A stretch of DNA of 37,297 nucleotides from Lactobacillus hamsteri DSM 5661 = JCM 6256 (GTDB lineage: Bacteria; Bacillota; Bacilli; Lactobacillales; Lactobacillaceae): assembly GCF_000615445.1 (NCBI RefSeq), contig NZ_BALY01000018.1:1-37297 (forward strand), in the 5' to 3' direction. Positions 5,595 to 20,309 of this stretch are shown here, in pieces. Position numbers and translations under genes: made by a program. Numbering within the stretch: the first letter of the stretch is position 1; each line of letters opens with the position of its first letter. The notes under the pieces were generated by a model that was given only the letters and a program-made list of their open reading frames with translations, made no database searches and had not been told where the DNA came from.

Positions 5595-6185
5595 ATGAAA
5601 ATATCTGGCAATGAGGACTTGCGAGTTCAACGAACTATTAAAAATATTTATCGAGCATTTGAAGATTTGATTTGTCAAAAAGATTATAACAAAATTACGG
5701 TTACTGAGCTGGCTCGTAAAGCTGAAATAAATAAGAAGACTTTTTATCGATACTATCCAACACTTGATGATTTACTTGCCGAAATGCAGGCACAGTATTC
5801 GCGGGGCTATATCAAATTAGTGGAAAATTATCGTTATCCGCAAGATATGAAAAAAATTGTACGTGCTTTTTATGAATTTTCAGCTAGACAAGGAAAAGCT
5901 TACGATAAAATTACTACGAGTACAGGAGCATATTCTAGAATTCGCCAGCAGATGATCAATCAAGTTGAAAAGAAAACTTGGGAACAATCGGCAGAGTTTA
6001 ATAATTTAAATGAATGGCAACAAAAAATCTTGCTAGCTTTTATTCAAGATACAAGTATTGCTTGTTATCGAGAATGGATTAATAGTAATAAAGAACAATC
6101 TATTGACGATATGATTGCTATAACATCTTCTTTATTAGAAGGTGGAATTGAAAAGTTTTTCAAAAATATAAAGCAAAATAACTAA
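5595..6185 (+). CDS. TetR/AcrR-family transcriptional regulator
   Basis: The protein has 196 residues. The N-terminal TetR helix-turn-helix is clear: ITVTELARKAEINKKTFYRYYPTLDDLL, about residues 34-62, with the family's K-x-T-F/L-Y-R-Y-Y signature. The C-terminal half is helical, with a conserved-looking FIQDTSIACYREWI. A GGAG lies upstream of the ATG. It stands alone between two terminators, immediately upstream of the NTF2-like/AKR operon in the same direction, so control of that operon or of itself is plausible. The ligand cannot be predicted. Confidence 0.88.
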   Translation: MKISGNEDLRVQRTIKNIYRAFEDLICQKDYNKITVTELARKAEINKKTFYRYYPTLDDLLAEMQAQYSRGYIKLVENYRYPQDMKKIVRAFYEFSARQGKAYDKITTSTGAYSRIRQQMINQVEKKTWEQSAEFNNLNEWQQKILLAFIQDTSIACYREWINSNKEQSIDDMIAITSSLLEGGIEKFFKNIKQNN

Positions 6186-6230: not shown

Positions 6231-6347
6231 TTTGCACCTTTTTATAAAAAAAGTGTGGCATAAGTCCCACCTTGAAAAATATTGCCCATTTTTTTGTCTA
6301 TTTACAGCTGGCATAATACTAATTGTCAACAAGCAAGGAGGTCAAAA

Positions 6348-6731
6348 ATGAACAATATAACACAAACAGCAGAAGATCTAATTAGAGAAACTTTTGCTAA
6401 AGAAAACGATGGAATGATTAATCAAGATTTGGATTTACTAAAAGAAGTAATCGCTCCTGATGCAATTCTTACTCACATTACCGGTGCCGAGCAAAGCCGT
6501 GATGAATGGCTAAGACAAATTAAGATCGGTCGTATGCGCTATAAGAAAAGTATCTTACAAAAAGTAGCAATCACGATTCTTGATGAAAATCATGCTCATG
6601 CGATTGTTCAAAATTTAGTAACTGCAAGAATTTACGGTTTTACTAATGATTGGCTTCTTCAAAGTGACAATCAATTAGAAAAAAGAAATGGCAATTGGGT
6701 AATTACTGGTTCCAAAGCTAGTTTGGCCTAA
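6348..6731 (+). CDS. NTF2-like (DUF4440/SnoaL-type) small protein
   Basis: A 127-residue protein from the ATG at 6348, chosen because a perfect AAGGAGG lies seven bases upstream; the frame is open further up to 6282 but without a binding site. The sequence (ETFAKENDGMINQDLDLLKEVIAPDAILTHITG ... NGNWVITGSKAS) has the cone-like NTF2/SnoaL pattern, with the DAxxTHITG strand and the closing RxGxWxIxxS motif. Such proteins are ligand-binding or small hydrolase/isomerase domains; the exact role is unknown. It heads a tight run of detoxification-type genes (AKR, acetyltransferase, esterase, NAD(P)-binding protein). Confidence 0.8.
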   Translation: MNNITQTAEDLIRETFAKENDGMINQDLDLLKEVIAPDAILTHITGAEQSRDEWLRQIKIGRMRYKKSILQKVAITILDENHAHAIVQNLVTARIYGFTNDWLLQSDNQLEKRNGNWVITGSKASLA

Positions 6732-6764
6732 TTAATAAAGATTAATTATAAAGGAGAAAACATA

Positions 6765-7613
6765 ATGGCAGAACAAACTTATGTTGAATTAAACAATGGT
6801 ACAAAAATTCCTCAATTTGGTTTAGGTGTTTACATGATTCAAGGAGATGGCCAAACAGCCAAGGCTGTTAAAGATGCGCTTGATTTAGGTTATCGCCATA
6901 TTGATACAGCCCATGCTTACCAAAATGAACGTGGTGTTGGTCAAGGAATTAAAGAAAGTGGCCTGAAACGTGAAGATGTTTGGATCACCAGTAAGTTATG
7001 GCCAACAGATTACGATGATCCAGAAACTGCAATTGATAAAATGCTTGATCGTTTAGGTACCGATTATATTGATTTACTTTTGCTTCACCAACAAGTTGGT
7101 AATTACTTAAATGCTTACAAGGGTATGGAAAAAGCACTTAAGGAAGGTAAAGTTAGATCAATTGGTATTAGTAACTTTGATGGGGAACGTCTTGATGACA
7201 TTATTGAACATTCAGAAGTTAAGCCAATGGTTATGCAAGTAGAAATGCATCCATATTACCAACAAAAGGCTTTAAAGGAAAAGATGAAGCCTTATGGTAC
7301 TAAGTTTGAAAGTTGGTATCCACTTGGTCATGGTGACGCTGGCTTGATGAATGAATCAATTTTTACCAAACTTGCTAAGAAGTATGGTAAGACTAACGCC
7401 CAAATTATCTTACGTTGGCACATTCAAGAAGAAAATATTGTTTTCCCTAAGACGACAAATCCTCAACATATGAGAGATAATATTGATATTTTTGATTTTG
7501 AATTAACTGATGAAGAAATGGCGGAAATTAACAAATTAGATTCTGGCAAGCGTTACTATAATGCAAGCTTGGCGCAACAAGAACAATTTGTAAACTATCA
7601 TCCTGCTGACTAG
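6765..7613 (+). CDS. Aldo/keto reductase (2,5-diketo-D-gluconate reductase-like)
   Basis: A 282-residue NADPH-dependent aldo/keto reductase. The catalytic tetrad is complete: D47 and Y52 (GYRHIDTAHAYQNE), K77 (TSKLW) and H108 (LLLLHQQ). The C-terminal cofactor loop contains FPKTTNPQHMRDN, where other family members have IPKS. A strong AAAGGAG precedes the ATG. It lies 33 bases after the NTF2-like gene in one apparent operon. It is the most divergent of the four AKR paralogues here and the only one lacking the LysR-type upstream box. The substrate is probably a small aldehyde or ketone; this is inference from the family. Confidence 0.92.
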   Translation: MAEQTYVELNNGTKIPQFGLGVYMIQGDGQTAKAVKDALDLGYRHIDTAHAYQNERGVGQGIKESGLKREDVWITSKLWPTDYDDPETAIDKMLDRLGTDYIDLLLLHQQVGNYLNAYKGMEKALKEGKVRSIGISNFDGERLDDIIEHSEVKPMVMQVEMHPYYQQKALKEKMKPYGTKFESWYPLGHGDAGLMNESIFTKLAKKYGKTNAQIILRWHIQEENIVFPKTTNPQHMRDNIDIFDFELTDEEMAEINKLDSGKRYYNASLAQQEQFVNYHPAD

Positions 7614-7634
7614 TTTTTAGAAAGAGACATAATT

Positions 7635-8176
7635 ATGACTAATAAAATTACGCGTTTGAATATGGATGACCCGACTTACCGTAGGTTCATATTCCTGAAA
7701 TGCATCGTAGTGATAAGCTTTGTTTTAAAATTAATCAATATTCAAATGAAGACTCTGAAAGACGTCCATTATTAGAAGAATTATTTGAAAATCGACTTCC
7801 TAAGACAAGTAATATTTACGCACCGCTTGAAATTGATTCAGGCCATCAAGTTGAAATTGGCGAACACGTATTTATTAATCATAATGTGACAATGATGGCT
7901 CATGGCGGAATTAAAATTGATGATGGCGTTATGATTGGACCACATGCCTCGCTTTTAACTGTCAATCATGATTTTCATAATCACCGAATTTTGGAAGTTT
8001 CACCAATTCATTTAAAGAAAAATGCGTGGATTGGTGCTAATACAACAATTCTTTCTGGTATTACAATTGGTGAAAATGCAATTGTTGCTGCGGGTGCAGT
8101 TGTAACTAAAGATGTTGAGCCCAATACAATTGTTGGTGGTAATCCAGCCCATGTCTTAAAGAAAATTGATGATTAA
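7635..8176 (+). pseudogene. Hexapeptide sugar O-acetyltransferase, frameshifted near its N-terminus
   Basis: The intact part (frame of 7700-8176) shows left-handed beta-helix repeats with the xenobiotic/maltose acetyltransferase pattern: [17 protein letters not shown], catalytic-type His in [11 protein letters not shown], then [30 protein letters not shown] and GNPAHVLKK. That frame has no start with a binding site: the ATG at 7700 has none, and a stop lies just upstream at 7682. An ATG at 7635, downstream of GAAAGAG, opens a different frame ([17 protein letters not shown]), which joins the acetyltransferase frame if one base is restored (or two removed) around 7680-7692. I therefore read it as one gene with a -1-type frameshift, either a mutation or a sequence error. 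Confidence 0.7.
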
Positions 8177-8810
8177 AATGTTGATCGATACTTTTACTCA
8201 AAATAATCGTAAAGTCTATGTTTATGGTAAGAAAAGTGTTCTTACTAATAGACAGGTACCCATGATTTTAGATTTAAATTGTACGACAGGAAATCCTAAA
8301 GCAGAGGTCTTAACTAATGGTTGGGATGAAGTAACAGAAAAAGAAAATATAATTGTGATTGCTCCTGAATATGATGATTATGCTACTTATTCTGAATGTC
8401 CGTTTTTAAGAGATTTAATTGCTGTTTGCGTGCAAAAATATCCAATTGATGAAAGTCGAATTTATAGTGTTGGCTTTTCAAATGGTGGTGCTAGTTCGGT
8501 AGCTTTGGCAAGTACTTATCCAAACTTATTGGCTGGAATTGCAGCTATGGGATGGGCAATTGGTATGATGCGTTCAAAAACGCAGATTCCATTTTTACTT
8601 ATTCAAGGTTCAAAAGAGTATGTTGATCAAAATTTGCCAGCTGTTATGGATGATGAAAAAGAAACTTTGCGTGATATTTTCTTAGCGGATAATTTGATTA
8701 CAAATGAAATGCGTACAGATTATAAAAAATGGCCTTATTGGGGTTATCCAAGCTCAAGTCAAGAAGTTAAAGAATTAACTTATCATGACTATGATCCTAC
8801 GGAAATATGA
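8169..8810 (+). CDS. Alpha/beta-hydrolase esterase, N-terminal fragment
   Basis: About 213 residues of a PHB-depolymerase/feruloyl-esterase-like serine hydrolase. The nucleophile elbow is clear in [15 protein letters not shown], following PIDESRIY, and [24 protein letters not shown] is the preceding strand-helix. The start overlaps the acetyltransferase stop (ATG at 8169; a TTG at 8166 and an ATG at 8178 are alternatives), implying coupling. The frame ends at TGA 8808-8810, after HDYDPTEI, before the catalytic His. The missing C-terminus is in the next frame (8807-9001), so this is the front half of a frameshifted gene and is probably inactive alone. Confidence 0.72.
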
Positions 8811-9001
8811 AACAAAAAGTTACTAATAATTTAACATTTTCGTATTATCAAAAAAATGGTTATCGTCATCCCTTTGTTCAAACAGTATTAATTCCGAATG
8901 CTCATCATATTCCTCATGATTGTAATGCAGAAATTGCATGGGATTTTCTTAAGCATTTTGCAAGAGATAAGCAAGGACAAATTGTAGAAATAAATAATTA
9001 G
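8807..9001 (+). CDS. Alpha/beta-hydrolase esterase, C-terminal fragment
   Basis: 64 residues continuing the upstream esterase in another frame: it contains VLIPNAHHIPHDCNAEIAWDFLKHFAR, where the His of AHH is the expected catalytic-triad histidine and the final helix is typical of the fold. There is no ribosome binding site for the ATG at 8807. The frame offset fits loss of one base (or gain of two) close to the AAACAAAAAG stretch near 8810. Restoring the frame would give a normal esterase of about 280 residues. Confidence 0.65.
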   Translation: MKQKVTNNLTFSYYQKNGYRHPFVQTVLIPNAHHIPHDCNAEIAWDFLKHFARDKQGQIVEINN

Positions 9002-9017
9002 AAAAAGAGGTAATAAT

Positions 9018-9629
9018 ATGACTAAAGTTCTTATCATTGGAGCTTCTGGCTCTATTGGCAGTGTTGTTGCTCCTGAATTATTAAAGAAGACAGATGCAGA
9101 TTTACGTTTGGCTTCAAGACATCCAAATTATATTAATGTAACTAACCCTAATCGAGAAGAAACTGTTAAATTAGATGTAACTAATGACGAAGAATTAGCT
9201 AATGCTTTAAGTGGAGTTGACTTTGTATTTGCTGCATTGTCAGGGAGTATGAATAAATATGCTAAGCATTTGGTTAAAGTAATGGATGAAGTTGGCGTTA
9301 AGCGCCTTGCTTTCATTACTACAATGGGAATCTATCAAGAAATTCCTTCATGGCTCGGTGATTCACCAAATCCATACCATAACATGATCTTAAGACCGTT
9401 CAGAAAAGCTGCGGATACTATTGAAGCAAGTGATCTAGATTATACAATTATCCGTCCCGGATGGCTTGATGATGGGGATGCAACTTATGAATTAACTAAG
9501 AAGGGTGAACCTTTTGGTGGTCATGATGTATCTCGTTACGCCATTGCCGATTTTGTTGCAAGGATGGTCAATGACCCAAGTTTTGCAAATAGAGAAAGCT
9601 ACGGTATTAACCGTCCACAAGCTTATTAA
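9018..9629 (+). CDS. NAD(P)H-binding atypical SDR (NmrA-like)
   Basis: A 203-residue Rossmann protein with the N-terminal dinucleotide motif MTKVLIIGASGSIGSVV (GxxGxxG-like, residues 8-14), then SGVDFVFAALSG and the late DLDYTIIRPGWLDDG motif typical of NAD(P)-binding_10/NmrA-like reductases or redox sensors. It lacks a clear YxxxK catalytic pair. AAGAGG precedes the ATG. It is the last gene of the run beginning at 6348 and is followed by a terminator. A paralogue lies at 17650, again downstream of an AKR gene. Confidence 0.85.
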   Translation: MTKVLIIGASGSIGSVVAPELLKKTDADLRLASRHPNYINVTNPNREETVKLDVTNDEELANALSGVDFVFAALSGSMNKYAKHLVKVMDEVGVKRLAFITTMGIYQEIPSWLGDSPNPYHNMILRPFRKAADTIEASDLDYTIIRPGWLDDGDATYELTKKGEPFGGHDVSRYAIADFVARMVNDPSFANRESYGINRPQAY

Positions 9630-9631
9630 TT

Positions 9632-9657
9632 AAAGTAGGGGAAACCCTGCTTTTTTT
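9632..9657 (+). terminator. Terminator ending the 6348-9629 operon
   Basis: AGTAGGG pairs with CCCTGCT (one G.U) around a GAAA tetraloop and runs into seven T. Confidence 0.85.
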
Positions 9658-9667
9658 ATAAAGATGA

Positions 9668-9734
9668 GTATACGAAGGGTGAATACTAGCTTGCCTAACA
9701 GTGAATTTTTTAAATGAATATTTGCATCTAGAAT
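9668..9734 (+). promoter_or_regulatory. LysR-type box and promoter upstream of AKR 9775 (site C)
   Basis: GTATAC-N7-GAATAC (9668-9686) is a dyad with an embedded T-N11-A, continuing into ACTAGCTTG as at sites A (14685) and B (16552). TAGAAT at 9729-9734 is the -10-like hexamer, exactly 61 bases after the box start; the -35 position holds only TTTTTT, so activation is expected. Confidence 0.6.
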
Positions 9735-9774
9735 AATAATCAAATCAAGAGATAAAAATTAGGAGAAAACAAAT

Positions 9775-10632
9775 ATGAATAAGACAATAAAATTAAATAA
9801 TGGCGTGGAAATGCCAACTGTTGGTTATGGTGTTTTTCAAATTCCTGAAGAACAAACAAAAAAAGTAGTTACTGAAGCGTTGAACGATGGCTACCGTTTA
9901 ATTGATACAGCTGCTGGATATTTAAATGAAAAGGCAGTTGGTGAAGCAATTAATAATAGTTCAGTAAAAAGAGACGACATTTTCTTAACTACTAAGTTGT
10001 GGGTTCAAGATTTTGATGGTGATAACCCTGAAAAAGCCATTGATGGAGCTCTTAAGCGTTTAGATCAAGATTATATCGATCTTCTTTTAATTCACCAACA
10101 TTTGGGTGATGTTTATAACGCATGGCGTGCTATGGAAAAAGCTGTAAAAGCAGGCAAGGTTAGAGCTGTCGGTGTATCTAATTTCCAAAGCTATCAAGTT
10201 CAAGATTTAATGATGCATAACGAAATTAAGCCAGCTGTTAACCAAATTCAAATTAATCCTTTAAATCCTGAAAATGACAATGTCAAATGGCTTCAAGACA
10301 ACGATATTGTTCCAGAAGCTTGGGGTCCAATGGGCCAAGCTCAAGCAGGAATTTTTACTAATCCTATTTTGACAAAGATTGCCAAGGATCATGGTAAGAC
10401 TGTGGGTCAAGTAATGCTTGCTTGGAACCTTCAAAGAGGAGTTGTTGTAATTCCTAAGTCAGTTCATGCTAATCGAATTAAGGAAAACTTTGATGTATTT
10501 GATTTAACTTTGACTGATGATGAAATGAAGCAAATTAATGGTTTGGATCAACATAATTCATACTTTGACGGTTTGCTTACCCCAGATACTGTAAAAGTTT
10601 TAGGCAATATGAAATTCGATTACCAAAATTAA
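9775..10632 (+). CDS. Aldo/keto reductase
   Basis: A 285-residue AKR with complete tetrad D44, Y49 (GYRLIDTAAGYLNE), K74 (TTKLW) and H107 (LLLIHQH), and the cofactor motif VVVIPKSVHANRIKEN near the C-terminus. AGGAG precedes the ATG. It is the first gene after a LysR-type box and is followed nine bases later by a flavodoxin and then a lactonase, suggesting a redox/carbonyl-detoxification operon. The substrate is not identifiable from sequence. Confidence 0.92.
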   Translation: MNKTIKLNNGVEMPTVGYGVFQIPEEQTKKVVTEALNDGYRLIDTAAGYLNEKAVGEAINNSSVKRDDIFLTTKLWVQDFDGDNPEKAIDGALKRLDQDYIDLLLIHQHLGDVYNAWRAMEKAVKAGKVRAVGVSNFQSYQVQDLMMHNEIKPAVNQIQINPLNPENDNVKWLQDNDIVPEAWGPMGQAQAGIFTNPILTKIAKDHGKTVGQVMLAWNLQRGVVVIPKSVHANRIKENFDVFDLTLTDDEMKQINGLDQHNSYFDGLLTPDTVKVLGNMKFDYQN

Positions 10633-10641
10633 GGTGAATAA

Positions 10642-11106
10642 ATGAAAACTTTAATTGCTTTTTATTCTTGGTCAGGAACGACAAAAAGATTAGCTAATAA
10701 AATTCATAAACTTATTCCCAACAGTGATTTATTAGAAATTAAAGTGCCAGATAGTACTTTTTCCAGCGATATGCATAAGACAGCTAGTATTTATGAAAAT
10801 CAAAAGAGTATTCATAATCTTCCTCAAATTTTAAATATGCCAAATAATGTTAATGAATACGATTTGATAGTTTTAGGTAGTCCAGTCTGGGATTGGGGAG
10901 TTTCTTCTCCAGTAATGAGTTTTATCGAAAATATTAGTAATTTTAGAGGAAAAGTTGCGCCTTTTTATACTAGTGTAGGCAATTCACAAAGGTTCATGGA
11001 ATTTTTCCATGATGTTTCTGGCAATTTAAATGTAATTCAAGACTTTGATGATGCACATGATGATTTAAATGAATGGATTAAGGAAATAACAAATGATAGA
11101 AGCTAA
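10642..11106 (+). CDS. Short-chain flavodoxin
   Basis: A 154-residue cytoplasmic flavodoxin. The FMN phosphate loop is FYSWSGTTKRLA (residues 7-18) and the second flavin loop is LGSPVWDWGVSSPV (about 79-92). It has no membrane segment, unlike the flavodoxin at the left edge. GGTGA precedes the ATG nine bases after the AKR stop; its 3' end overlaps the lactonase start by 14 bases. It likely works as an electron carrier or NAD(P)H-linked FMN reductase partner within this operon. Confidence 0.88.
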   Translation: MKTLIAFYSWSGTTKRLANKIHKLIPNSDLLEIKVPDSTFSSDMHKTASIYENQKSIHNLPQILNMPNNVNEYDLIVLGSPVWDWGVSSPVMSFIENISNFRGKVAPFYTSVGNSQRFMEFFHDVSGNLNVIQDFDDAHDDLNEWIKEITNDRS

Positions 11107-11509
11107 ATTAACTTATCAAGAAGGTGACCAATTTGCACCGATTCCTGCCAATGAGCAGTCATTGCCTTCAATAGTAGCAGAGCATTTCGTAGACATTGAT
11201 CTAGGAGACGAAAATCCGGCCTACAATATTCTCGAAGGACTTAATTTTGATCAACATGACAACTTATATGTTTGTGTTCCACCTCAAGGAGATATCTATC
11301 GTGTTGATATGAAAACTAAAAAAGTAAGTCATTTTACCCATTTACCTCATAATATGCTTCCTTCTGCATTAAAAGTTCATCGAGATGGGCGATTGTTTAT
11401 TACCTCAGCAGGTTCGAATCATGGTTGCTCAGTTGCTGTTCTTGATCCAGATGATGGTCATGTCATTAAGGAATTGGCTAATTTGCTGGAAGAATGTTTG
11501 ATGATTTAG
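11093..11509 (+). CDS. SMP-30/Drp35-like lactonase, N-terminal fragment
   Basis: 138 residues with the first blades of a six-bladed SMP-30/gluconolactonase propeller (YNILEGLNFDQHDNLYVCVPPQGDIYRVD, then LHRDGRLFIT-type repeats as LKVHRDGRLFITSAG). The glutamate in the ILEGLNFD segment corresponds to a usual metal ligand. AAGGAAA precedes the ATG, which overlaps the flavodoxin end. The frame terminates at LEECLMI, and the propeller continues in the -1 frame from 11494, so this is the front part of a frameshifted gene. Confidence 0.72.
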   Translation: MIEAKLTYQEGDQFAPIPANEQSLPSIVAEHFVDIDLGDENPAYNILEGLNFDQHDNLYVCVPPQGDIYRVDMKTKKVSHFTHLPHNMLPSALKVHRDGRLFITSAGSNHGCSVAVLDPDDGHVIKELANLLEECLMI

Positions 11510-12060
11510 CATTTGATCATCGTGGTGGTTTTTATCTTTCTGACCTAGGTGGTACGCTTGATAATCCATCTGCTGGAATTTACTATGTTTCACCTGATGA
11601 AAAGACAATAACTCCAGTTGTTAAAAATGGAATGATTGCAAGTAACGGAATTAGTTTAGATCCAGAAGAAAATAATCTTTGGACTACTGAATATGGTACC
11701 GGCCGTTTGCATCATTTAGGCTTAAGCGGTGATAAAAAGTCAATCGTACCATCTTTATCCAATATTCCATATTATTTTACTGGTATGGAAGGTCCAGATT
11801 CTTTGACTGTTGATCGTGATGGTAATGTTTACGTTTCAATGTGTGGCCAAGGAAGATTTCTTATTTTTAATAAAAATGGTTTTCCAATTGGTCAAATCCT
11901 CCTACCTGGAAGGGAAAGGGGTGATATGCTTAAGTCAACGCACATCATTATTCGTCCAAATACAAATGAGGCTTATATGTGCAGCAGTAATTTGACAACG
12001 GGAAAGGCTGCAATATTTAAAGCTAAAGTATATGCAAAGTCGAATAATTTTAATGATTAG
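11494..12060 (+). CDS. SMP-30/Drp35-like lactonase, C-terminal fragment
   Basis: 188 residues completing the lactonase: FDDLAFDHRGGFYLSDLGG resembles the metal-site strand of Staphylococcus Drp35, GIYYVSPDEKTITPVVKNGMIASNGISLDPEENNLWTTEY contains the conserved Asn-Gly-Ile metal-binding loop, and GPDSLTVDRDGNVYVSM the third Asp motif. There is no ribosome binding site before the ATG at 11494. It overlaps the upstream fragment by 16 bases, consistent with a one-base loss near 11490-11500. Joined, the two give about 320 residues, normal for Drp35-like lactonases. Confidence 0.7.
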   Translation: MFDDLAFDHRGGFYLSDLGGTLDNPSAGIYYVSPDEKTITPVVKNGMIASNGISLDPEENNLWTTEYGTGRLHHLGLSGDKKSIVPSLSNIPYYFTGMEGPDSLTVDRDGNVYVSMCGQGRFLIFNKNGFPIGQILLPGRERGDMLKSTHIIIRPNTNEAYMCSSNLTTGKAAIFKAKVYAKSNNFND

Positions 12061-12144
12061 TTGACATTAATTTTGATTGCGATAGGAAGGGTTATAGGAT
12101 GTTATTCTTATAATCCTTTTATTTTTGAAAAAGGGATGATTATT

Positions 12145-13713
12145 TTGAAAAAAATTATGATTGGCGTTATTGGTAAAACAGGTTCAGGAAAAACATCATT
12201 AATTAATAGTTTTTCTACAATTAGTAATCATGAATTTGAATTCATTGATACTCCTGGGACTTTGGCTTTAGCTGATCAGATTGAAGAAAAAACATCTAAC
12301 CTTGATTACGCAATTTTTGTGTTGCCAGCTAATGAAAAATTTTCGGGTGAAAGTTTTGCCTTGTGGCAATTATTGAAATATTATCAAATTCCTACATTTA
12401 TTTTTATTAATAAAGTGGATTTAAAGACGTGGGATAAAAAAGAACTTGATCAAAATTTAAAGGAGCAACTAGGCTCTTCCAGCATTTTGTTTAATGATAA
12501 GTTACGTGACGAAAGTTTAGAAGAGATCGCGTTACAAGATGAAGTCTTGCTTGATAAGTACATTAAAGATGGACATATTTCTGAGGAGGACATTCGCGAA
12601 CTTATTGCTAAAAGAAAAGTTTATCCATATTATGTTGGCTCCGCTTTAAATAGGGATGAAATATCAACTTTCTTTAACGGTATAAAAAGATGGTATGAAT
12701 TAAGCAATAAAAATAAATCGTCTAAAACCCAACGCTTTTTTGATGCCAGTTTTATTTATACTGTCAAAGTAAAAGAAGATGACATTTCTTCGTGTATAAA
12801 AGCATTACGAAAAATAGAAAACGAAAATCCTCGTTTGAATGTAAAATGGATAAAACAATTAGATGAAATTCAAGTTAATCTAATGGGAGATTTGGCAGGA
12901 AAGGTTCTTGAAGATAGATTGAAAAAAGATTTTAATATTCAAGCCCAAATAGTTCCAGCGCAACCTTTATATAAAGAAACTGTTAATTCCTCTGTTGAGG
13001 GTGTAGGACATTATTCTCCCTTACGGCACTATTCTGAAGTTCATTTAATTATTGAATCAGGAAAGCGTGGGAGTGGAATTACTTTTGATGCAGACTGTCC
13101 TTGGACAGTATTACCAAGAAATTGGCAGGAAGTAGTTCACCAAGAGATTTTAACGGAAGAAATTCCCGGAGTTTTAATTGGTGCACCGATAATAGATCTT
13201 AAGTTTACATTAATAGGTGGTATTTCTAATTTAGCCCATTCAGGAAGTGAAGATTTTAGAAAATCGACTAGAAGAGCTGTTCGGCAAGGCTTGATGCAGT
13301 TGAAAGCAATGAATCAATGTCAGCTGTTAGAACCTTTTTATCGTTTCAAATTAATTCTTCCTGAAGAAAATGTTGGTCAGGCGATTCAAGATATTAGTCA
13401 AATGTCTGGCGAAGTAAAAATTAGTGACCATAGAGGATCAATTGTTACTTTAACAGGGATGGCTCCAGTGAGTGAAATGCAAAATTATCAGAAAAAGGTA
13501 AGCAGTTATACTCATGGTTTAGGATATTTAAGTTGTGTTTTTGCGGAATATCGCAATTGCCATAATGCTTCTGAAGTTATTGAATCGTATAAATATGATC
13601 CGGAAAATGATATTAATTTTCCAATTGATTCTGTTTTTTGTTTGAATAAAATTAATACGCAAATAAGATGGGATCAGGTTGATAAGTATTGTTTGTATCC
13701 GATGAAAAATTAG
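12145..13713 (+). CDS. Reduced TetM/EF-G-like translation-factor paralogue lacking switch I and domain II
   Basis: From a TTG at 12145 with AAAGGG upstream the protein has 522 residues and starts MKKIMIGVIGKTGSGKTSLI, aligning with TetM-type starts; the frame stays open further up to 12061. Visible GTPase motifs are the P-loop GKTGSGKTS (10-18), DTPG (35-38), NKVD (89-92) and GSA (165-167). Only 16 residues separate P-loop and DTPG, so the switch I RGITI segment is absent, and DTPGH is DTPGT. After residue 200 it enters domain III directly (ALRKIENENPRLNVKW), skipping the beta-barrel domain II, then domains IV/V (EGVGHYSPLRHYSEVHL, RGSGITFD, LLEPFYRFKL, MSGEVKISD) and a C-terminal CHNASEVIE tail. 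It resembles the Firmicutes TetM-like translation GTPase family. Tetracycline resistance should not be assumed. Confidence 0.75.
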   Translation: MKKIMIGVIGKTGSGKTSLINSFSTISNHEFEFIDTPGTLALADQIEEKTSNLDYAIFVLPANEKFSGESFALWQLLKYYQIPTFIFINKVDLKTWDKKELDQNLKEQLGSSSILFNDKLRDESLEEIALQDEVLLDKYIKDGHISEEDIRELIAKRKVYPYYVGSALNRDEISTFFNGIKRWYELSNKNKSSKTQRFFDASFIYTVKVKEDDISSCIKALRKIENENPRLNVKWIKQLDEIQVNLMGDLAGKVLEDRLKKDFNIQAQIVPAQPLYKETVNSSVEGVGHYSPLRHYSEVHLIIESGKRGSGITFDADCPWTVLPRNWQEVVHQEILTEEIPGVLIGAPIIDLKFTLIGGISNLAHSGSEDFRKSTRRAVRQGLMQLKAMNQCQLLEPFYRFKLILPEENVGQAIQDISQMSGEVKISDHRGSIVTLTGMAPVSEMQNYQKKVSSYTHGLGYLSCVFAEYRNCHNASEVIESYKYDPENDINFPIDSVFCLNKINTQIRWDQVDKYCLYPMKN

Positions 13714-13761
13714 CATAAGCTATTAAAATTTTGAAAGATAATGATTATAAAATAATAGATT

Positions 13762-13790
13762 AAAAAAAGCCTATTTTATAGGCTGTTTCT
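13762..13790 (-). terminator. Terminator between the TetM-like gene and lysR (both directions)
   Basis: AGCCTA (13768-13773) pairs with TAGGCT (13779-13784). On the minus strand it is followed by seven T, ending the lysR transcript; on the plus strand the downstream tract TGTTTCTTT is weaker. Confidence 0.75.
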
Positions 13791-13804
13791 TTAAAAATTT
13801 AAAT

Positions 13805-14671
13805 TTAATCTACCTTTTCCCAAGCGTCTTGCCATTCCTCAATGACTGGCTCAAGACGCTTTTTGTTTGTCCTTAAGTAATTGGCATAGAAGCTTTGTGT
13901 AGCAACAGAATCAGAGATTTTAACAGCAATTCTGTCTCTAGTTAGTTCTTCATCAGCAATTGGATTTAATTTACTAATGTTAGTTGTAAAGAAAGGAAAG
14001 ACTGAGTAATTCTTAATTTCGTTAAAGCTTTCCAATTGATTCTGATATAAAAACTTCGCTTCAGGAATTTCTTTTTGAATAATATCTTTCCAAATTCCGA
14101 TGTCGCTTAAAACTAGGAAACTCAATCCCTTTAATTCATTAAAAGTAACGCTGGGTTTGCTTGCTAAATTAGAGAATTCATTCAGATGAACAGTTAAAGT
14201 TTCCATCCCTAAATAATCGGATTCGATTTTAGAATTATCAATTGGCTCATTTGAAATTATACAAGTATATTGATTTTGTAAAAGTAAATCACCCAAATTT
14301 TCTTTTTTAATTAGATTATCGTTAATTTTAAGATTTTCTTGTTTAAGAGAATTTATTAACATAACAGGACCAGGTGCAATGGAAGCCATGGTTATTTCTT
14401 TATTACTATTGTCGAAGTTTTTAACTTCAGTAATGTAATCTCGATTAACCTTTAACACATATTCCGCACGTTCTGCCGCATATTCACCGGTTTTATTGAG
14501 AGTGATTTTATTAGGAGTACGATCAAAAATTTTGATTCCTAATTCACTCTCAATTTTTTTAGTTCCGCGGGTAATAGCCGGCTGAGATAGTCCTAATTTT
14601 TCTGATGCTTTAGCTAGCGTTCCTTCTTTTGCAAAAGCAACAAGTTCTTCTAATAAATAATTGTCAATCAT
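13805..14671 (-). CDS. LysR-family transcriptional regulator
   Basis: The protein has 288 residues. The N-terminal winged helix-turn-helix is canonical (LVAFAKEGTLAKASEKLGLSQPAITRGTKKIESELGIKIFDRTPNKITLNKTG, about residues 10-62), followed by a LysR substrate-binding domain that is divergent from well-known subfamilies. It is divergently transcribed from the AKR at 14794, and the 19-bp dyad of site A lies between them, starting 13 bases from its own ATG, so it probably autoregulates. Identical box geometry before two other AKR genes suggests one regulon for all three. A plausible but unproven role is sensing reactive carbonyl or redox stress. Confidence 0.9.
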   Translation of the reverse strand: MIDNYLLEELVAFAKEGTLAKASEKLGLSQPAITRGTKKIESELGIKIFDRTPNKITLNKTGEYAAERAEYVLKVNRDYITEVKNFDNSNKEITMASIAPGPVMLINSLKQENLKINDNLIKKENLGDLLLQNQYTCIISNEPIDNSKIESDYLGMETLTVHLNEFSNLASKPSVTFNELKGLSFLVLSDIGIWKDIIQKEIPEAKFLYQNQLESFNEIKNYSVFPFFTTNISKLNPIADEELTRDRIAVKISDSVATQSFYANYLRTNKKRLEPVIEEWQDAWEKVD

Positions 14672-14684
14672 AATTCCACCTCAA

Positions 14685-14751
14685 GTATTCATTTAACGTA
14701 TACTAGCATGTTCAAGAGTAAATTTTCAAGTTATACGTCTCCGTCTAAAAT
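14685..14751 (+). promoter_or_regulatory. LysR-type box and promoter in the lysR-AKR gap (site A)
   Basis: GTATTC-N7-GTATAC at 14685-14703 holds a T-N11-A box and continues TAGCATGTTC. The -10-like TAAAAT is at 14746-14751, 61 bases after the box start; the -35 position has TTTTCA. The same long block recurs at 16552 almost unchanged. Confidence 0.65.
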
Positions 14752-14793
14752 AATATTTGAAATCGAGATATGAAAGAAAAGGAGAATTAAGAA

Positions 14794-15669
14794 ATGACTC
14801 AAGCACCTAAATTTAAATTAAATGATAATACTGAAATTCCTTCATTTGGTTTTGGTACTTTCCAAATTCCAGATGATGGATCAACTTACAAAGCCGTGAG
14901 TGAAGCACTTAAAGCAGGATATCGTCATATTGATACTGCAGTTGCTTACTTCAATGAAGATGAAGTTGGAAAGGCGGTTCGTGATAGTGGCATCCCAAGA
15001 GAAGATATTTGGATTACTTCTAAAATGTGGCTTCAAGATTATGCTTATGAAGATGCTAAAAAGGCTATCGATCGTACTTTGGAAAAACTTGGCTTGGACT
15101 ATGTTGATCTTTACTTGATTCACCAACCATACGGTAAGGTGGATGAAGCTTGGAGAGCAATGGTTGAAGCTCAAAAAGAAGGTAAGATTCGTTCAATTGG
15201 TGTTTCTAATATGACGCCAAAGATTTGGAAAAAATGGGAAGCCAAAGGCATGTTTAAGGAAGCAATGCCTTCAGTTAACCAAGTTGAATTTAATCCATAC
15301 TTCCAACAGAAGGAACTTCGTCAAATTATGGCTCAAAATCATGTGACTTTGGAAGCTTGGGCTCCGCTTGGTGAAGGAAACAAAGATTTATTTGCGGAAC
15401 CTGTGTTAAATGATATCGCTAAGAAGTATGGCAAGGATGTTGGTCAAGTTATGCTTAGATTTGAACATCAAGAAGGCGTAATCGTCTTTCCTAAGTCATC
15501 CCATGCAGCAAGAATTAAGTCAAATATGAATATTTTCGACTTTGAATTAACTAGTGATGAAATGGATGCGATTCGTGGGCTTGACAAAGGCCAAGGGGCG
15601 CATGATCCAGATGCCCCAGGCTTTGACAAGGTTCTTCTTAATGCTTTTGACGTTCATGCCAATGATTAA
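14794..15669 (+). CDS. Aldo/keto reductase
   Basis: A 291-residue AKR with tetrad D47, Y52 (GYRHIDTAVAYFNE), K77 (TSKMW) and H110 (LYLIHQP), and the cofactor segment VIVFPKSSHAARIKSN. AAGGAG precedes the ATG. It is divergent from lysR and is followed 26 bases later by an SDR oxidoreductase, with which it probably forms a two-gene operon ending in a strong terminator. Confidence 0.92.
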   Translation: MTQAPKFKLNDNTEIPSFGFGTFQIPDDGSTYKAVSEALKAGYRHIDTAVAYFNEDEVGKAVRDSGIPREDIWITSKMWLQDYAYEDAKKAIDRTLEKLGLDYVDLYLIHQPYGKVDEAWRAMVEAQKEGKIRSIGVSNMTPKIWKKWEAKGMFKEAMPSVNQVEFNPYFQQKELRQIMAQNHVTLEAWAPLGEGNKDLFAEPVLNDIAKKYGKDVGQVMLRFEHQEGVIVFPKSSHAARIKSNMNIFDFELTSDEMDAIRGLDKGQGAHDPDAPGFDKVLLNAFDVHAND

Positions 15670-15695
15670 ATATAAATATGAAAGGAAATAATAAA

Positions 15696-16448
15696 ATGAC
15701 TGAAGAATTAAACAATCAAGTTGCATTAGTAACTGGCGGTGGCTCAGGCTTAGGCCGTGCCATGGCAGAAAAGTTTGCAAATAATGGTGCTAAGGTAGTT
15801 ATCCTTGGTCGTCACGAAGAAACATTGAAAGAAACAGCAGATACTAACGATAATATTTCCTATGTGGTTGCTGATTTAACTAAGGATGAAGATATTCAAA
15901 AAGTTGCCGATTATGTAAAAGATAACTTTGGTCAATTGAATATTTTAGTTAACAATGCAGGATGGTGCCCAATTAAGCCAATTTCTGAAATGGAAATTAG
16001 TGATTATGATCGCGCCTTTGATGTTGATGTGCGTGGAGTTGTTGCTTTAACTATTGCAACTTTGCCTTTGATTAAGAAGGCTAAGGGTAACATTATCAAC
16101 ATTTCAAGTATTGCTACTCAACATCCGGGCGTTGGCTTTTCAATGTATGCAGGTGCTAAGTCAGCTGTTGAACAAATGTCAAAGAGCTGGGCTTTGGAAC
16201 TTGCTCCAGAAGGTGTTCGTGTAAACGTGATTTCTCCAGGTGCTATTGATACTAATATTTGGTATAAGACTGATACTATTAGTAAAGATGCTGAAGAAAA
16301 GAACCGTGAGGGCGCAGTTGCTGGAACTCCTTTAGGTCACATTGGTAAGCCTGATGATATTGCAAATATGGCCTTATACCTTGCTTCTGAAAAAGGCAAC
16401 TTTATTACTGGCGCTAACTACTTAGTTGACGGCGGAATGGGTATGTAA
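15696..16448 (+). CDS. Classical short-chain dehydrogenase/reductase
   Basis: A 250-residue classical SDR from the ATG at 15696, chosen because GAAAGGAAA is at a suitable distance; an in-frame ATG at 15678 would place the binding site inside the gene. Motifs are TGGGSGLG for NAD(P) binding (residues 13-20), NNAG in the fourth strand, catalytic Ser in INISSIA and the YxxxK pair in MYAGAK, then ISPGAIDT and a C-terminal GxxYLVDGGMGM. It likely reduces a small ketone or sugar-derived carbonyl using NAD(P)H. Co-transcribed with the upstream AKR. Confidence 0.92.
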   Translation: MTEELNNQVALVTGGGSGLGRAMAEKFANNGAKVVILGRHEETLKETADTNDNISYVVADLTKDEDIQKVADYVKDNFGQLNILVNNAGWCPIKPISEMEISDYDRAFDVDVRGVVALTIATLPLIKKAKGNIINISSIATQHPGVGFSMYAGAKSAVEQMSKSWALELAPEGVRVNVISPGAIDTNIWYKTDTISKDAEEKNREGAVAGTPLGHIGKPDDIANMALYLASEKGNFITGANYLVDGGMGM

Positions 16449-16484
16449 TTATCTATAAATATCAATAACTATCACTTTAAGCTT

Positions 16485-16521
16485 AAAAGCTCCTAGTTTC
16501 ACGACTAGGAGCTTTTATATT
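16485..16521 (+). terminator. Terminator of the AKR-SDR operon
   Basis: A 13-bp perfect stem, AAAAGCTCCTAGT (16485-16497) with ACTAGGAGCTTTT (16504-16516), is followed by TATATTTTT. Confidence 0.92.
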
Positions 16522-16551
16522 TTTGTAAAAGTATGAAAATACTTAAAAAGT

Positions 16552-16618
16552 GTATTCACTTATCGTATACTAGCATGTTCGAAAGGTAATTTTCTCTTAT
16601 AAAAATTCGACATATACT
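16552..16618 (+). promoter_or_regulatory. LysR-type box and promoter upstream of AKR 16677 (site B)
   Basis: GTATTC-N7-GTATAC at 16552-16570 with T-N11-A continues TAGCATGTTC, as in site A. TATACT at 16613-16618 is the -10, again exactly 61 bases after the box start; the -35 position reads TTTTCT. Confidence 0.65.
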
Positions 16619-16676: not shown

Positions 16677-17543
16677 ATGGAATACATTACTTTAAACGAC
16701 GGTAACAAAATGCCTCAACTTGGCTTTGGTGTTTTTCAAGTCCCAGATTTAAATGAAGCTGAAAAGGCGGTTAGGGATGCACTTGATGTAGGTTACCGTT
16801 TATTCGATACAGCCGCAGCTTATGGTAATGAAGAAGCCGTTGGCAAGGCTATTCGTGAAAGTGGCGTTAACCGCGATGATATTTTCGTAACTTCTAAACT
16901 TTGGGTTGATCATTTTACTTATGAAAAAGCTAAAAAAGGTATTGATGATTCATTGAACAAGCTGGGTCTTGACTACATGGATCTTTACCTTCTTCACCAA
17001 CCATACGGTGATACTGCAGGTGCTTGGAGAGCATTGGAAGAAGCACAAAAAGCTGGCAAGATTAAATCAATTGGTGTTTCTAACTTCTACGCAGACCAAT
17101 TAAAGAATTTGGAACTTATGAGCAATGTTAAGCCAGCTGTTAACCAAATTGAAGTTTCTCCTTGGTATCAACAGCCTGAGGAAGTTGCTTTTAACCAAAA
17201 TGAAAATGTTGCTGTTGAAGCATGGGCACCTTTTGCTGAAGGTAAGCACAATATTTTTACTGATGAAACTATTGCTAAGATTGGTGAAAAATACGGTAAA
17301 GCTAATGGTCAAATTATCTTACGTTGGCTCATTCAACGTGGCATTATCGTGATTCCTAAGTCAGTTCATAAGAATAGAATGGAAGAAAACTTTGATGTCT
17401 TTGACTTTGAATTAAGTGATGATGACATGAAGGTAATGAACAGTTTGGACAAAAAGGAAAGTCAATTCTTTGATCATCGTGATCCAGCTGCTATTGAAAG
17501 TATCTTCGGTTCAAGCTTGAAGGCATTGCGCGATTATAAATAA
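16677..17543 (+). CDS. Aldo/keto reductase
   Basis: A 288-residue AKR with tetrad D44, Y49 (GYRLFDTAAAYGNE), K74 (TSKLW) and H107 (LYLLHQP), and IIVIPKSVHKNRMEEN in the cofactor region. GGAGGA precedes the ATG. It is closest in style to the AKR at 9775 (both have IPKSVH), suggesting duplication within the island. It has its own LysR-type box upstream and a NAD(P)-binding protein downstream; no terminator is visible between them. Confidence 0.92.
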   Translation: MEYITLNDGNKMPQLGFGVFQVPDLNEAEKAVRDALDVGYRLFDTAAAYGNEEAVGKAIRESGVNRDDIFVTSKLWVDHFTYEKAKKGIDDSLNKLGLDYMDLYLLHQPYGDTAGAWRALEEAQKAGKIKSIGVSNFYADQLKNLELMSNVKPAVNQIEVSPWYQQPEEVAFNQNENVAVEAWAPFAEGKHNIFTDETIAKIGEKYGKANGQIILRWLIQRGIIVIPKSVHKNRMEENFDVFDFELSDDDMKVMNSLDKKESQFFDHRDPAAIESIFGSSLKALRDYK

Positions 17544-18614: not shown

Positions 18615-20309
18615 TTGAAAAAAAGAAAAAATATTATTACTTTAGTAGCAGCTGTAACTTTGGGAACTTCTTGCATAACGATTTTTCCGAATCGTTCACA
18701 GACTGTTTTAGCTGAGAAAAATAATAATGCTAAAAAGACGAAGCTTAGTGATAAGCAAATTATAAAAAATTTGGGTGTTCAAGCTGTTTCAAATACTGAA
18801 AACGATAAATTGACACAAAAATATGCGGATATTGTTAAAGAAAGAAATTATACATGGGAGAATCCTTACATAAAAGTAAATCCTTATGAAAATTCTCCTT
18901 TAACAGCCCTAATGATTTTTCATACTGATACACCAACTGAAATTTCTTATGAAGTAGTTGGAAAAACGGCAAATACATCGATTAAAAATACGGTTTCAGG
19001 CTATCAGACTGATCATCAAATACCTATTGTTGGATTGTATGCAGGGTACGATAATGATGTAAAAATCACCATGACCGATCAAAATGGTAATCAACAAGTT
19101 AAAACTGTAAAAATAAAAACAATTAATTTGCCTCGTTGGATAAAAACTACCAAGATTTCAGTATCGAAAAATGATAAGTCTAAGATGAACATCGGAGATA
19201 ATGAACTTACTGTTTTAAATAGAACGACTAAGCAGACTTTCGCAGTTGATGCTGATGGCCAAGTTCGTTGGTATTATTTACGTTGGAATGAGCATATTTT
19301 TGAACAGTTGAAAAATGGACATATCTTGCTTTTTAATAAAATTAAAAGTGGAGATTCTAAGTATAATATGTTAGTTGAAACAGATTATCTAGGAAGAATT
19401 TATCATCAATATAAATTTGATAAAAACTTAGGCGGGAGCTATTATGGAACCGCTGGGGTATCAATGGTTCACCACGATGTAGCAGAAATGCCAAACGGTA
19501 ATTGGTTGTTAACTGTTAATGATGGAAGCAAATATGTTGAAGATACGATCGCTGAATTAAATCCTAATACTGGAAAAATTGAAAAAGTTATTGATTTTAA
19601 GAAGATTTTTCCTTCAGATATGTATGCCAAAAGTACTATAAAGGCCGCTGATCAAGCAACGTCAGGTTTAGGATTAATGGATTGGTTACATATAAATTCT
19701 ATAGACTATGATCCGGAAACTAATAATGTTTTATTTTCAGCTCGTAATCAAGATATGATTTGGTCAATGAATTATAAGACTAATAAGTTAAATTGGATAT
19801 TTACTAATAAGCCAGCTTCAAAATGGCCATCTTCGTATCGAAAATATTTATTAAAGCCAACTTCTGGAACTAAATATCCAGGTGGACAGCATGGTGTTTA
19901 TATATTAAGCAAAAAAGGTTCAACAATGAGAGTTCTGCTTTATGATAATAATATTGCTGTTACTAATGGAGATAAGGCACAAAGTAAAAAGTTTTCTGTT
20001 GCCACGGAATATGAAATTAATACTTCTAAGAAATCTATTAAAGAAGTCTGGAGCTATGGTAAATCTTTGGGTGCAGCTAATTTTACAGCCGTAATTGGTT
20101 ATGCACAAAGATTAGCTAATGGAAATACTTTAATCGATTTTGGATTTAAAGATAATGGAAATCAGAGTAATATTATTGAGGTAGATAAAAACGGTAAACA
20201 AGTTTTCAATATGACTACGTATAATAGTGTAGAGAATAAAACTTATGTATATCGTGCATATAGAATGAAATTCTATCCTAAAGAATATGTTTTTAATGCG
20301 TTGAATTAA
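18615..20309 (+). CDS. Secreted arylsulfate sulfotransferase (ASST family)
   Basis: A 564-residue exported protein from TTG at 18615, with AAGGAGAG upstream. The signal peptide (MKKRKNIITLVAAVTLGTSC, then ...TVLAEK) has a probable cleavage after VLA near residue 33. Residues about 75-175 form the beta-rich ASST N-terminal domain; the rest is the six-bladed propeller. All four residues expected from E. coli ASST (His252, His356, Arg374, His436) have counterparts: the HH at 286-287 in MVHHDVAEM, H359 in DWLHINSI, R377 in FSARNQD and H425 in GGQHGVY. The enzyme transfers sulfate from one phenolic sulfate to another phenol without PAPS, outside the membrane. In a gut organism it could act on host or bacterial phenol sulfates; that is inference. 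A disulfide like the E. coli one is not apparent. Confidence 0.9.
   Translation: MKKRKNIITLVAAVTLGTSCITIFPNRSQTVLAEKNNNAKKTKLSDKQIIKNLGVQAVSNTENDKLTQKYADIVKERNYTWENPYIKVNPYENSPLTALMIFHTDTPTEISYEVVGKTANTSIKNTVSGYQTDHQIPIVGLYAGYDNDVKITMTDQNGNQQVKTVKIKTINLPRWIKTTKISVSKNDKSKMNIGDNELTVLNRTTKQTFAVDADGQVRWYYLRWNEHIFEQLKNGHILLFNKIKSGDSKYNMLVETDYLGRIYHQYKFDKNLGGSYYGTAGVSMVHHDVAEMPNGNWLLTVNDGSKYVEDTIAELNPNTGKIEKVIDFKKIFPSDMYAKSTIKAADQATSGLGLMDWLHINSIDYDPETNNVLFSARNQDMIWSMNYKTNKLNWIFTNKPASKWPSSYRKYLLKPTSGTKYPGGQHGVYILSKKGSTMRVLLYDNNIAVTNGDKAQSKKFSVATEYEINTSKKSIKEVWSYGKSLGAANFTAVIGYAQRLANGNTLIDFGFKDNGNQSNIIEVDKNGKQVFNMTTYNSVENKTYVYRAYRMKFYPKEYVFNALN

Follow-up and report, generated by a model that had tools for sequence, protein, structure and literature searches.

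The window analyzed here, the 37,297-nucleotide contig NZ_BALY01000018.1 of Lactobacillus hamsteri DSM 5661 = JCM 6256 (contig C64 of its own 1.83-Mb assembly; 81 contigs, 96% complete), carries three copies of an operator-promoter module, each ahead of an aldo/keto reductase (AKR) gene and one of them next to a gene for a LysR-type regulator. The module has a set geometry, forms a small genome-wide set, is distributed in Lactobacillaceae and is linked to one clade of LysR proteins. We consider it likely that these units make up a dedicated regulon of the classical LysR kind, built on a precisely spaced module. An earlier note on this DNA had proposed such a regulon, and conservation of the box at AKR homologs, together with a full module that is not scattered in the genome, argues for that interpretation.

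Three boxes with one promoter geometry

The earlier note had described a dyad, GTATWC-N7-GWATAC, at positions 9668, 14685, and 16552. All three were found without a mismatch, and there was no other exact match in the window. The remaining sequence features that it listed were also recovered. The dyad continues into TAGCTTG, TAGCATG, and TAGCATG respectively, the -10-like hexamers TAGAAT, TAAAAT, and TATACT begin 61 bases after the box start at 3/3 sites, and with a 17-bp spacer the -35 positions are T-rich and poor (TTTTTT, TTTTCA, and TTTTCT). With the transcription start predicted at offset 73, the dyad centre lies at about -64, close to the -65 given in the note. Each box is followed by a gene of the AKR family PF00248 (3/3; 172.5 to 188.7 bits, cut-off 24), and the box at 14685 stands 13 bases from the start codon of lysR (PF00126). 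A fourth AKR gene (AKR6765; AKR genes are named by their first position) had been said to lack the box, and scanning the window with a matrix (≥12 bits) indeed gave only the three sites, none of them at this gene. A chance origin of the boxes was ruled out by 100 dinucleotide shuffles of the window, in which neither the exact 19-mer dyad nor the 26-mer (dyad plus TAGCWTG) found an exact match. When up to two mismatches were allowed, the 19-mer occurred at chance level (4 observed versus 4.23 expected), and therefore only the exact or longer form of the box is informative.

Paired T-N11-A motifs within a longer conserved unit

The conserved unit is longer than first described. Counted from the box start, the three window sites share the dyad (0-18), TAGCWTG (19-25), AATTTT (36-41), and T-A-N3-T (61-66), and a second T-N11-A motif lies 21 bp past the first. 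Twenty-four sites, the window's own three among them, aligned over 76 bp without gaps and were made into a sequence-only profile of 76 columns. For this alignment 21 of the 30 lysR loci of the genus were used; the loci omitted were L010 (the window's own site), L022 and L033 (repeats), and L029, L030, L032, L035, L036, and L038 (module missing wholly or partly). We further compared 59 sites divergent from lysR with 54 other sites, counting identical sites once and requiring a matrix score of ≥18 bits. T3, A15, T24, T39, and A62 were invariant in 113/113 sites and A36 in 112/113, in sets that were collected by matrix and are thereby biased toward conserved columns. AATTTT (52/59 versus 45/54) and T-A-N3-T (58/59 versus 53/54) did not differ between the two classes, the -35 was weak in nearly every site, and conservation was confined to set columns with variable spacers between them. 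T3-N11-A15 and T24-N11-A36 are spaced by 21 bp, or two helical turns, with centres at about -64 and -43. Activation by LysR-type regulators typically involves a T-N11-A dyad near -65, an activation site near -35/-40 on the same face of the helix, and a weak -35; judged from sequence, the paired motifs have the layout of a LysR recognition site and activation site.

A predicted lysR promoter on the opposite strand

Two further sets of bases distinguished the lysR-divergent sites. CAA at 42-44 was present in 49/59 of them versus 8/54 other sites, and CA at 22-23 in 57/59 versus 25/54. After near-copies were removed (genus loci only, discarding sites within 8 differences of a kept one), the counts were 16/24 versus 4/43 for CAA (p=1.6e-6) and 22/24 versus 20/43 for CA. 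Read on the other strand, these extra bases give TTGAAA-18-TAGTAT with an extended TG. Because they are tied to a divergent lysR, C22 and CAA 42-44 are better read as a lysR promoter, and the whole TAGCATG...AATTTTCAA block as a LysR site was partly rejected. A consensus promoter scan of the region lists this promoter at 14729-14700, but is weak on its own, since it gave no more promoter-like sites than shuffles (39 versus 46.7). The start predicted for lysR is close to the centre of the dyad, and the predicted -35 of lysR overlaps the AKR -35; this overlap with both the AKR -35 and the dyad suggests that LysR likely represses its own gene. The lysR paralogs at L029, L030, L036, and L038 have a dyad by the start codon with no AATTTT or -10 on the far side; such dyad-only sites perhaps serve autoregulation only.

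Distribution in Lactobacillaceae

We derived a 42-bp pattern solely from the three window sites and scanned with it one genome per species of 84,980 species, a set that may lack records closely similar to the window's genome. All 33 loci found were in Lactobacillaceae: Levilactobacillus, Lactiplantibacillus, Secundilactobacillus, Loigolactobacillus, Lapidilactobacillus, Bombilactobacillus, Pediococcus, Oenococcus, and two uncultured Lactobacillus bins. The box thus stands upstream of AKR homologs in other genera. At 30/33 loci it lies between an opposite-strand LysR homolog (intact or fragmented) and a homolog of AKR16677, and a homolog of AKR14794 is next in 29 of those 30, locus L079 being cut by the end of its stretch; at L075 the LysR open reading frame (ORF) is about 780 bp from the box. 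The widespread layout is thus lysR <- box -> AKR-AKR. The other three (L062, L072, and L084) are upstream of a long ORF that at its start is similar to the MFS protein of L114. Although the pattern had no -10 requirement, T-A-N3-T was found at +61 in 32/33 loci, and at any other offset from 44 to 84 in 7 loci at most.

In the relative G006 (locus L127), whose LysR is 69% identical, one box heads a small ORF, two AKR genes, and a short-chain dehydrogenase/reductase (SDR) gene, and a second box is upstream of the flavodoxin gene and not of the AKR9775 homolog. The number of profile matches reached 11 in G016, 10 in G025, 8 in G024, and 6 in G047. The ten of G025 are within 27 kb together with three lysR paralogs (a matrix scan at ≥14 bits gives 14), and the targets of this island include AKRs, SDRs, NmrA-like NAD(P)-binding proteins, esterases, an MFS protein, a PF06800 transporter, and flavodoxins; behind one flavodoxin comes a ferric-reductase-like flavoprotein and behind another a Zn-dependent dehydrogenase.

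Four promoters in the genome and a small ORF

The profile gave four places at E<1e-9 in the window's own genome, three in the window and one on another contig (C50:18829), and the next match was at E=0.24; the genome-wide scan suggested in the earlier note thus showed no scatter of the full module. Since the assembly may lack about 4% of the genome, further sites may exist. The exact 19-mer recurs once outside the window, at C54:21463, where the 26-mer has 3 mismatches and none of the 26 profile matches falls; this dyad was rejected as a regulon member because the rest of the module is missing.

The fourth full site precedes a predicted 37-aa ORF. Relatives of 28-37 aa occur in other genomes, and the ORF was found nine times in 7/61 genus genomes. 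In seven of these copies a module of 15 to 57 bits ends 35-46 bp upstream of the start codon; the modules at L157, L160, and L163 are weak (15 to 20 bits) and outside the profile matches. Of the other two copies, L162 has the dyad only and L164 no module. A 28-aa copy behind the lysR box of G006 was missed by the homolog search. Three copies scanned against NCBIfam gave no match.

The box accompanies one clade of LysR

The product of lysR has a winged helix-turn-helix (HTH) domain (PF00126, 47.8 bits versus a cut-off of 26.6), and its C-terminal part matched the substrate-binding domain PF03466 below the cut-off of 28 (22.0 bits, E=1.2e-4). Its single cysteine (137) is common to 9/54 aligned homologs (27 from the genus and 27 from among the 33 pattern loci), and no column has more. 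Thiol sensing by OxyR-type redox cysteines was rejected on this ground, and with no conserved cysteine the inducer is read as a bound small molecule instead of thiol chemistry. A ligand guess from the nearest solved structure was dropped, as structure matches cover the HTH region only.

In the recognition helix, residue 35 varied together with the half-sites. Arginine was found with G13 in 18/18 genus loci (C5 in 16, T5 in 2) and histidine with A5/T13 in 4/4; the 27 family loci also have Arg35, but the pattern that selected them prescribes C5 and G13. Boxes of the His35 type also stand before the same gene or its neighbourhood at L107, L108, L110, and L112 (G002, G012, G036, and G011 respectively); three of these genomes keep lysR remnants only and G002 none, so that operators have outlived their regulator.

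Presence of the box followed presence of the LysR. Among 61 genomes of the genus, at E≤1e-40 for LysR and E≤0.01 for the box, 22 had the LysR and 30 the box, which was present in 21/22 LysR-positive versus 9/39 other genomes (Fisher p=2e-8), a comparison that is partly circular because 21/24 training sites came from those genomes. Six of the 9 box-only genomes (G007, G011, G012, G036, G045, and G058) hold lysR remnants of the same clade. In an order sample of 158 genomes (box E≤1e-5), the box was found in 8/9 LysR-positive genomes versus 4/149 others (Fisher p=5e-10). Four LysR-positive genomes of the family, outside the genus and not in training (G106, G122, G194, and G209), had the box in 4/4; it adjoins lysR in three of them by gene maps and in G209 by coordinates.

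Apart from this circularity and the matrix bias given above, several observations weigh against the proposed regulon. The box is present with neither a LysR of the clade nor a remnant in G002, G026, and G042. With the thresholds applied, no box accompanies the LysR of G008 (in the genus) or of G109 (in another family). G088, likewise from another family, has a weak box match (E=1.7e-6) and no LysR. The whole module was found at 24 of the 30 genus lysR loci and in a weaker form at L035; four (L029, L030, L036, and L038) have the dyad without the promoter part and one (L032) has no box. The His35 LysRs form a single clade (support 100/100, L060 being left out of the tree), and therefore the match of helix and half-site counts as one event. 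Three MFS-type sites away from lysR retain CAA. Moreover, A2-T3 with A15 was less conserved at lysR sites (16/24) than elsewhere (42/43), which the model did not predict.

Proposed mechanism and alternatives

In the mechanism that we propose, LysR, probably as a tetramer, would bind a rigid module made of the recognition dyad T3-N11-A15 and a degenerate activation site, T24-N11-A36, which touches the weak -35. Inducer would shift the hold of LysR on the second T-N11-A motif, and LysR with inducer would recruit RNA polymerase to the -10 at +61 of a promoter with a poor -35. LysR may in this way turn on the AKR-flavodoxin-lactonase, AKR-SDR, and AKR units of the window and the fourth unit elsewhere, that of the 37-aa membrane-type ORF, and when bound would cover the start of lysR and repress it. 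The inducer is probably a small carbonyl, a quinone, or a related compound, since the target enzymes suggest carbonyl- or quinone-type stress as the signal.

The same binding could mainly repress the AKR genes, with the inducer releasing them. The module does cover the -35, but its layout is that of activation: the dyad is centred at about -64, another T-N11-A follows two turns further downstream, and almost all sites have a weak -35, where an operator meant for repression should come with a good one. We hold repression to be improbable. It is less likely still that another regulator binds the module and that the adjacent lysR is incidental. The three genus genomes with a box and no LysR of the clade nor remnant would fit such a regulator, whereas adjacency of lysR in several genera, the co-occurrence, the remnants in 6/9 exceptions, and the recognition-helix match argue for LysR, and the one further LysR-like gene found in the window's own genome (C68:3459) has no box near it by profile search. 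Likeness of the boxes could also be mostly a matter of descent, if AKR genes were copied along with the DNA preceding them. In the window the targets are AKRs in all three cases, and homologs of AKR16677 and AKR14794 are in tandem in other genera. However, the same module stands before a small ORF and before MFS, flavodoxin, esterase, NAD(P)-binding protein, and transporter genes, and conserved positions are confined to set columns, the spacers between them differing from site to site. Because unrelated genes carry the module, tandem duplication was rejected as a full explanation, and we give descent as the main cause very little credence.

Activation by LysR from the module is the preferred reading. 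A bolder extension of it is less likely than not: the operator-promoter cassette may itself be a unit of evolution in Lactobacillus, having spread before successive redox genes into islands of at least 10 separately switched promoters, with several lysR paralogs of diverging half-sites. It would also repeatedly have captured a membrane protein of 32-37 aa, not linked to it in other respects, with a role in the response such as the modulation of a transporter or of a redox enzyme in the membrane.

Relation to known systems

IlvY-ilvC and GltC-gltAB are LysR-type regulators and targets with overlapping divergent promoters. The arrangement here resembles them in its divergent target, T-N11-A near -65, activation site near -40, overlapping promoters, and expected autorepression; in contrast to them, the module occurs at several unlinked targets and, in some relatives, at least 10 times in one island. 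In E. coli, the LysR-type gene yafC is located beside the AKR gene dkgB, and the window's lysR likewise adjoins a DkgA/DkgB-like AKR gene, but its product matched the YafC model at 33 of 470 bits, in the HTH region only. The three box-linked AKRs scored 249.1, 251.3, and 285.5 bits, under the cut-off of the DkgA model NF008598 (425 bits). The best-scoring curated model for the LysR was that of CidR, the LysR-type activator of cidABC (NF047520), but with 61 bits versus a cut-off of 415 and with different targets it is not CidR.

Regulons of Lactobacillales, including LysR-family ones, have been reconstructed by comparative genomics in RegPrecise (PMC3616900). The LysR passage of that paper covers three cysteine/methionine regulons and MleR, and its main text, as distinct from its supplements, lacks the terms 'aldo', 'keto reductase', and 'oxidoreductase'. 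By title or abstract start, no description of the regulon was found in the open-licence literature, a scope outside which most subscription papers fall. The kind of regulon is classical and the regulon itself apparently undescribed; new are the dissection of the operator, the inclusion of an unlinked small ORF, and islands in which the module is repeated. Reductases without an assigned purpose become one testable response with a base-resolved operator and four promoters genome-wide, and a natural change in the recognition helix predicts specificity. The LysR is a candidate sensor of reactive carbonyls or quinones in gut and food lactobacilli, and its regulon takes in a small protein of membrane type that has no family assignment.

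Target genes and neighbours

Coordinates are given in Table 1. Terminator-like stems are 15-35 bases upstream of modules 1 and 3, which are therefore probably the heads of separate transcripts. Of the genes named as members in the earlier note, the AKRs, the SDR, and the flavodoxin have matching Pfam domains, while the lactonase is not one ORF here but two (138 and 188 aa), compared with a single 322-aa ORF in G006 (L127).

Table 1. Features of the proposed regulon (positions in the window, except for the small ORF)
Feature	Position	Strand	Details
Module 1	9668..9734	+	dyad 9668-9686, TAGCTTG 9687-9693, AATTTT 9704-9709, -10 TAGAAT 9729-9734; profile E=5.5e-11
Module 2	14685..14751	+	dyad 14685-14703, TAGCATG 14704-14710, AATTTTCAA 14721-14729, -10 TAAAAT 14746-14751; profile E=1.9e-15
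Module 3	16552..16618	+	dyad 16552-16570, TAGCATG 16571-16577, AATTTT 16588-16593, -10 TATACT 16613-16618; profile E=1.0e-12
lysR, proposed regulator, 288 aa	13805..14671	-	PF00126 above cut-off
Predicted lysR promoter	14700..14729	-	TTGAAA 14729-14724, 18-bp spacer, extended -10 TGCTAGTAT (TAGTAT 14705-14700); from consensus scan and class-specific conservation
AKR, first gene after module 1	9775..10632	+	PF00248
Flavodoxin-like protein, second gene after module 1	10642..11106	+	PF12682
SMP-30/gluconolactonase-like gene in two ORFs	11093..12060	+	11093-11509 no Pfam match; 11494-12060 PF08450
AKR after module 2	14794..15669	+	PF00248
SDR, second gene after module 2	15678..16448	+	PF13561
AKR after module 3	16677..17543	+	PF00248
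Predicted 37-aa ORF behind fourth module	L008 1621-1734 (C50:18950)		one hydrophobic stretch and basic tail
Terminator-like stem directly upstream of module 1	9632..9653	+	
Terminator-like stem directly upstream of module 3	16484..16517	+	

A TetR-type gene (5595-6185) stands before the box-less operon at 6282-9629 (DUF4440, AKR6765, hexapeptide transferase, hydrolase, and NAD(P)-binding protein), and this operon, AKR6765 included, may be under the control of the TetR protein and not of LysR. The TetR-type gene and genes of this operon are also grouped in G006. The hexapeptide transferase (7635-8176) and hydrolase (8166-8810) have 158 and 214 aa, compared with 180 and 273 aa in G006 (L127). 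The shortening or splitting of these two genes and of the lactonase gene reflects operon decay or assembly errors. An EF-G-like ORF (12061-13713) is nearest to ribosomal-protection proteins (188 bits versus a model cut-off of 775), and an arylsulfotransferase-type protein (PF05935) is encoded beside the regulon at 18615-20309.

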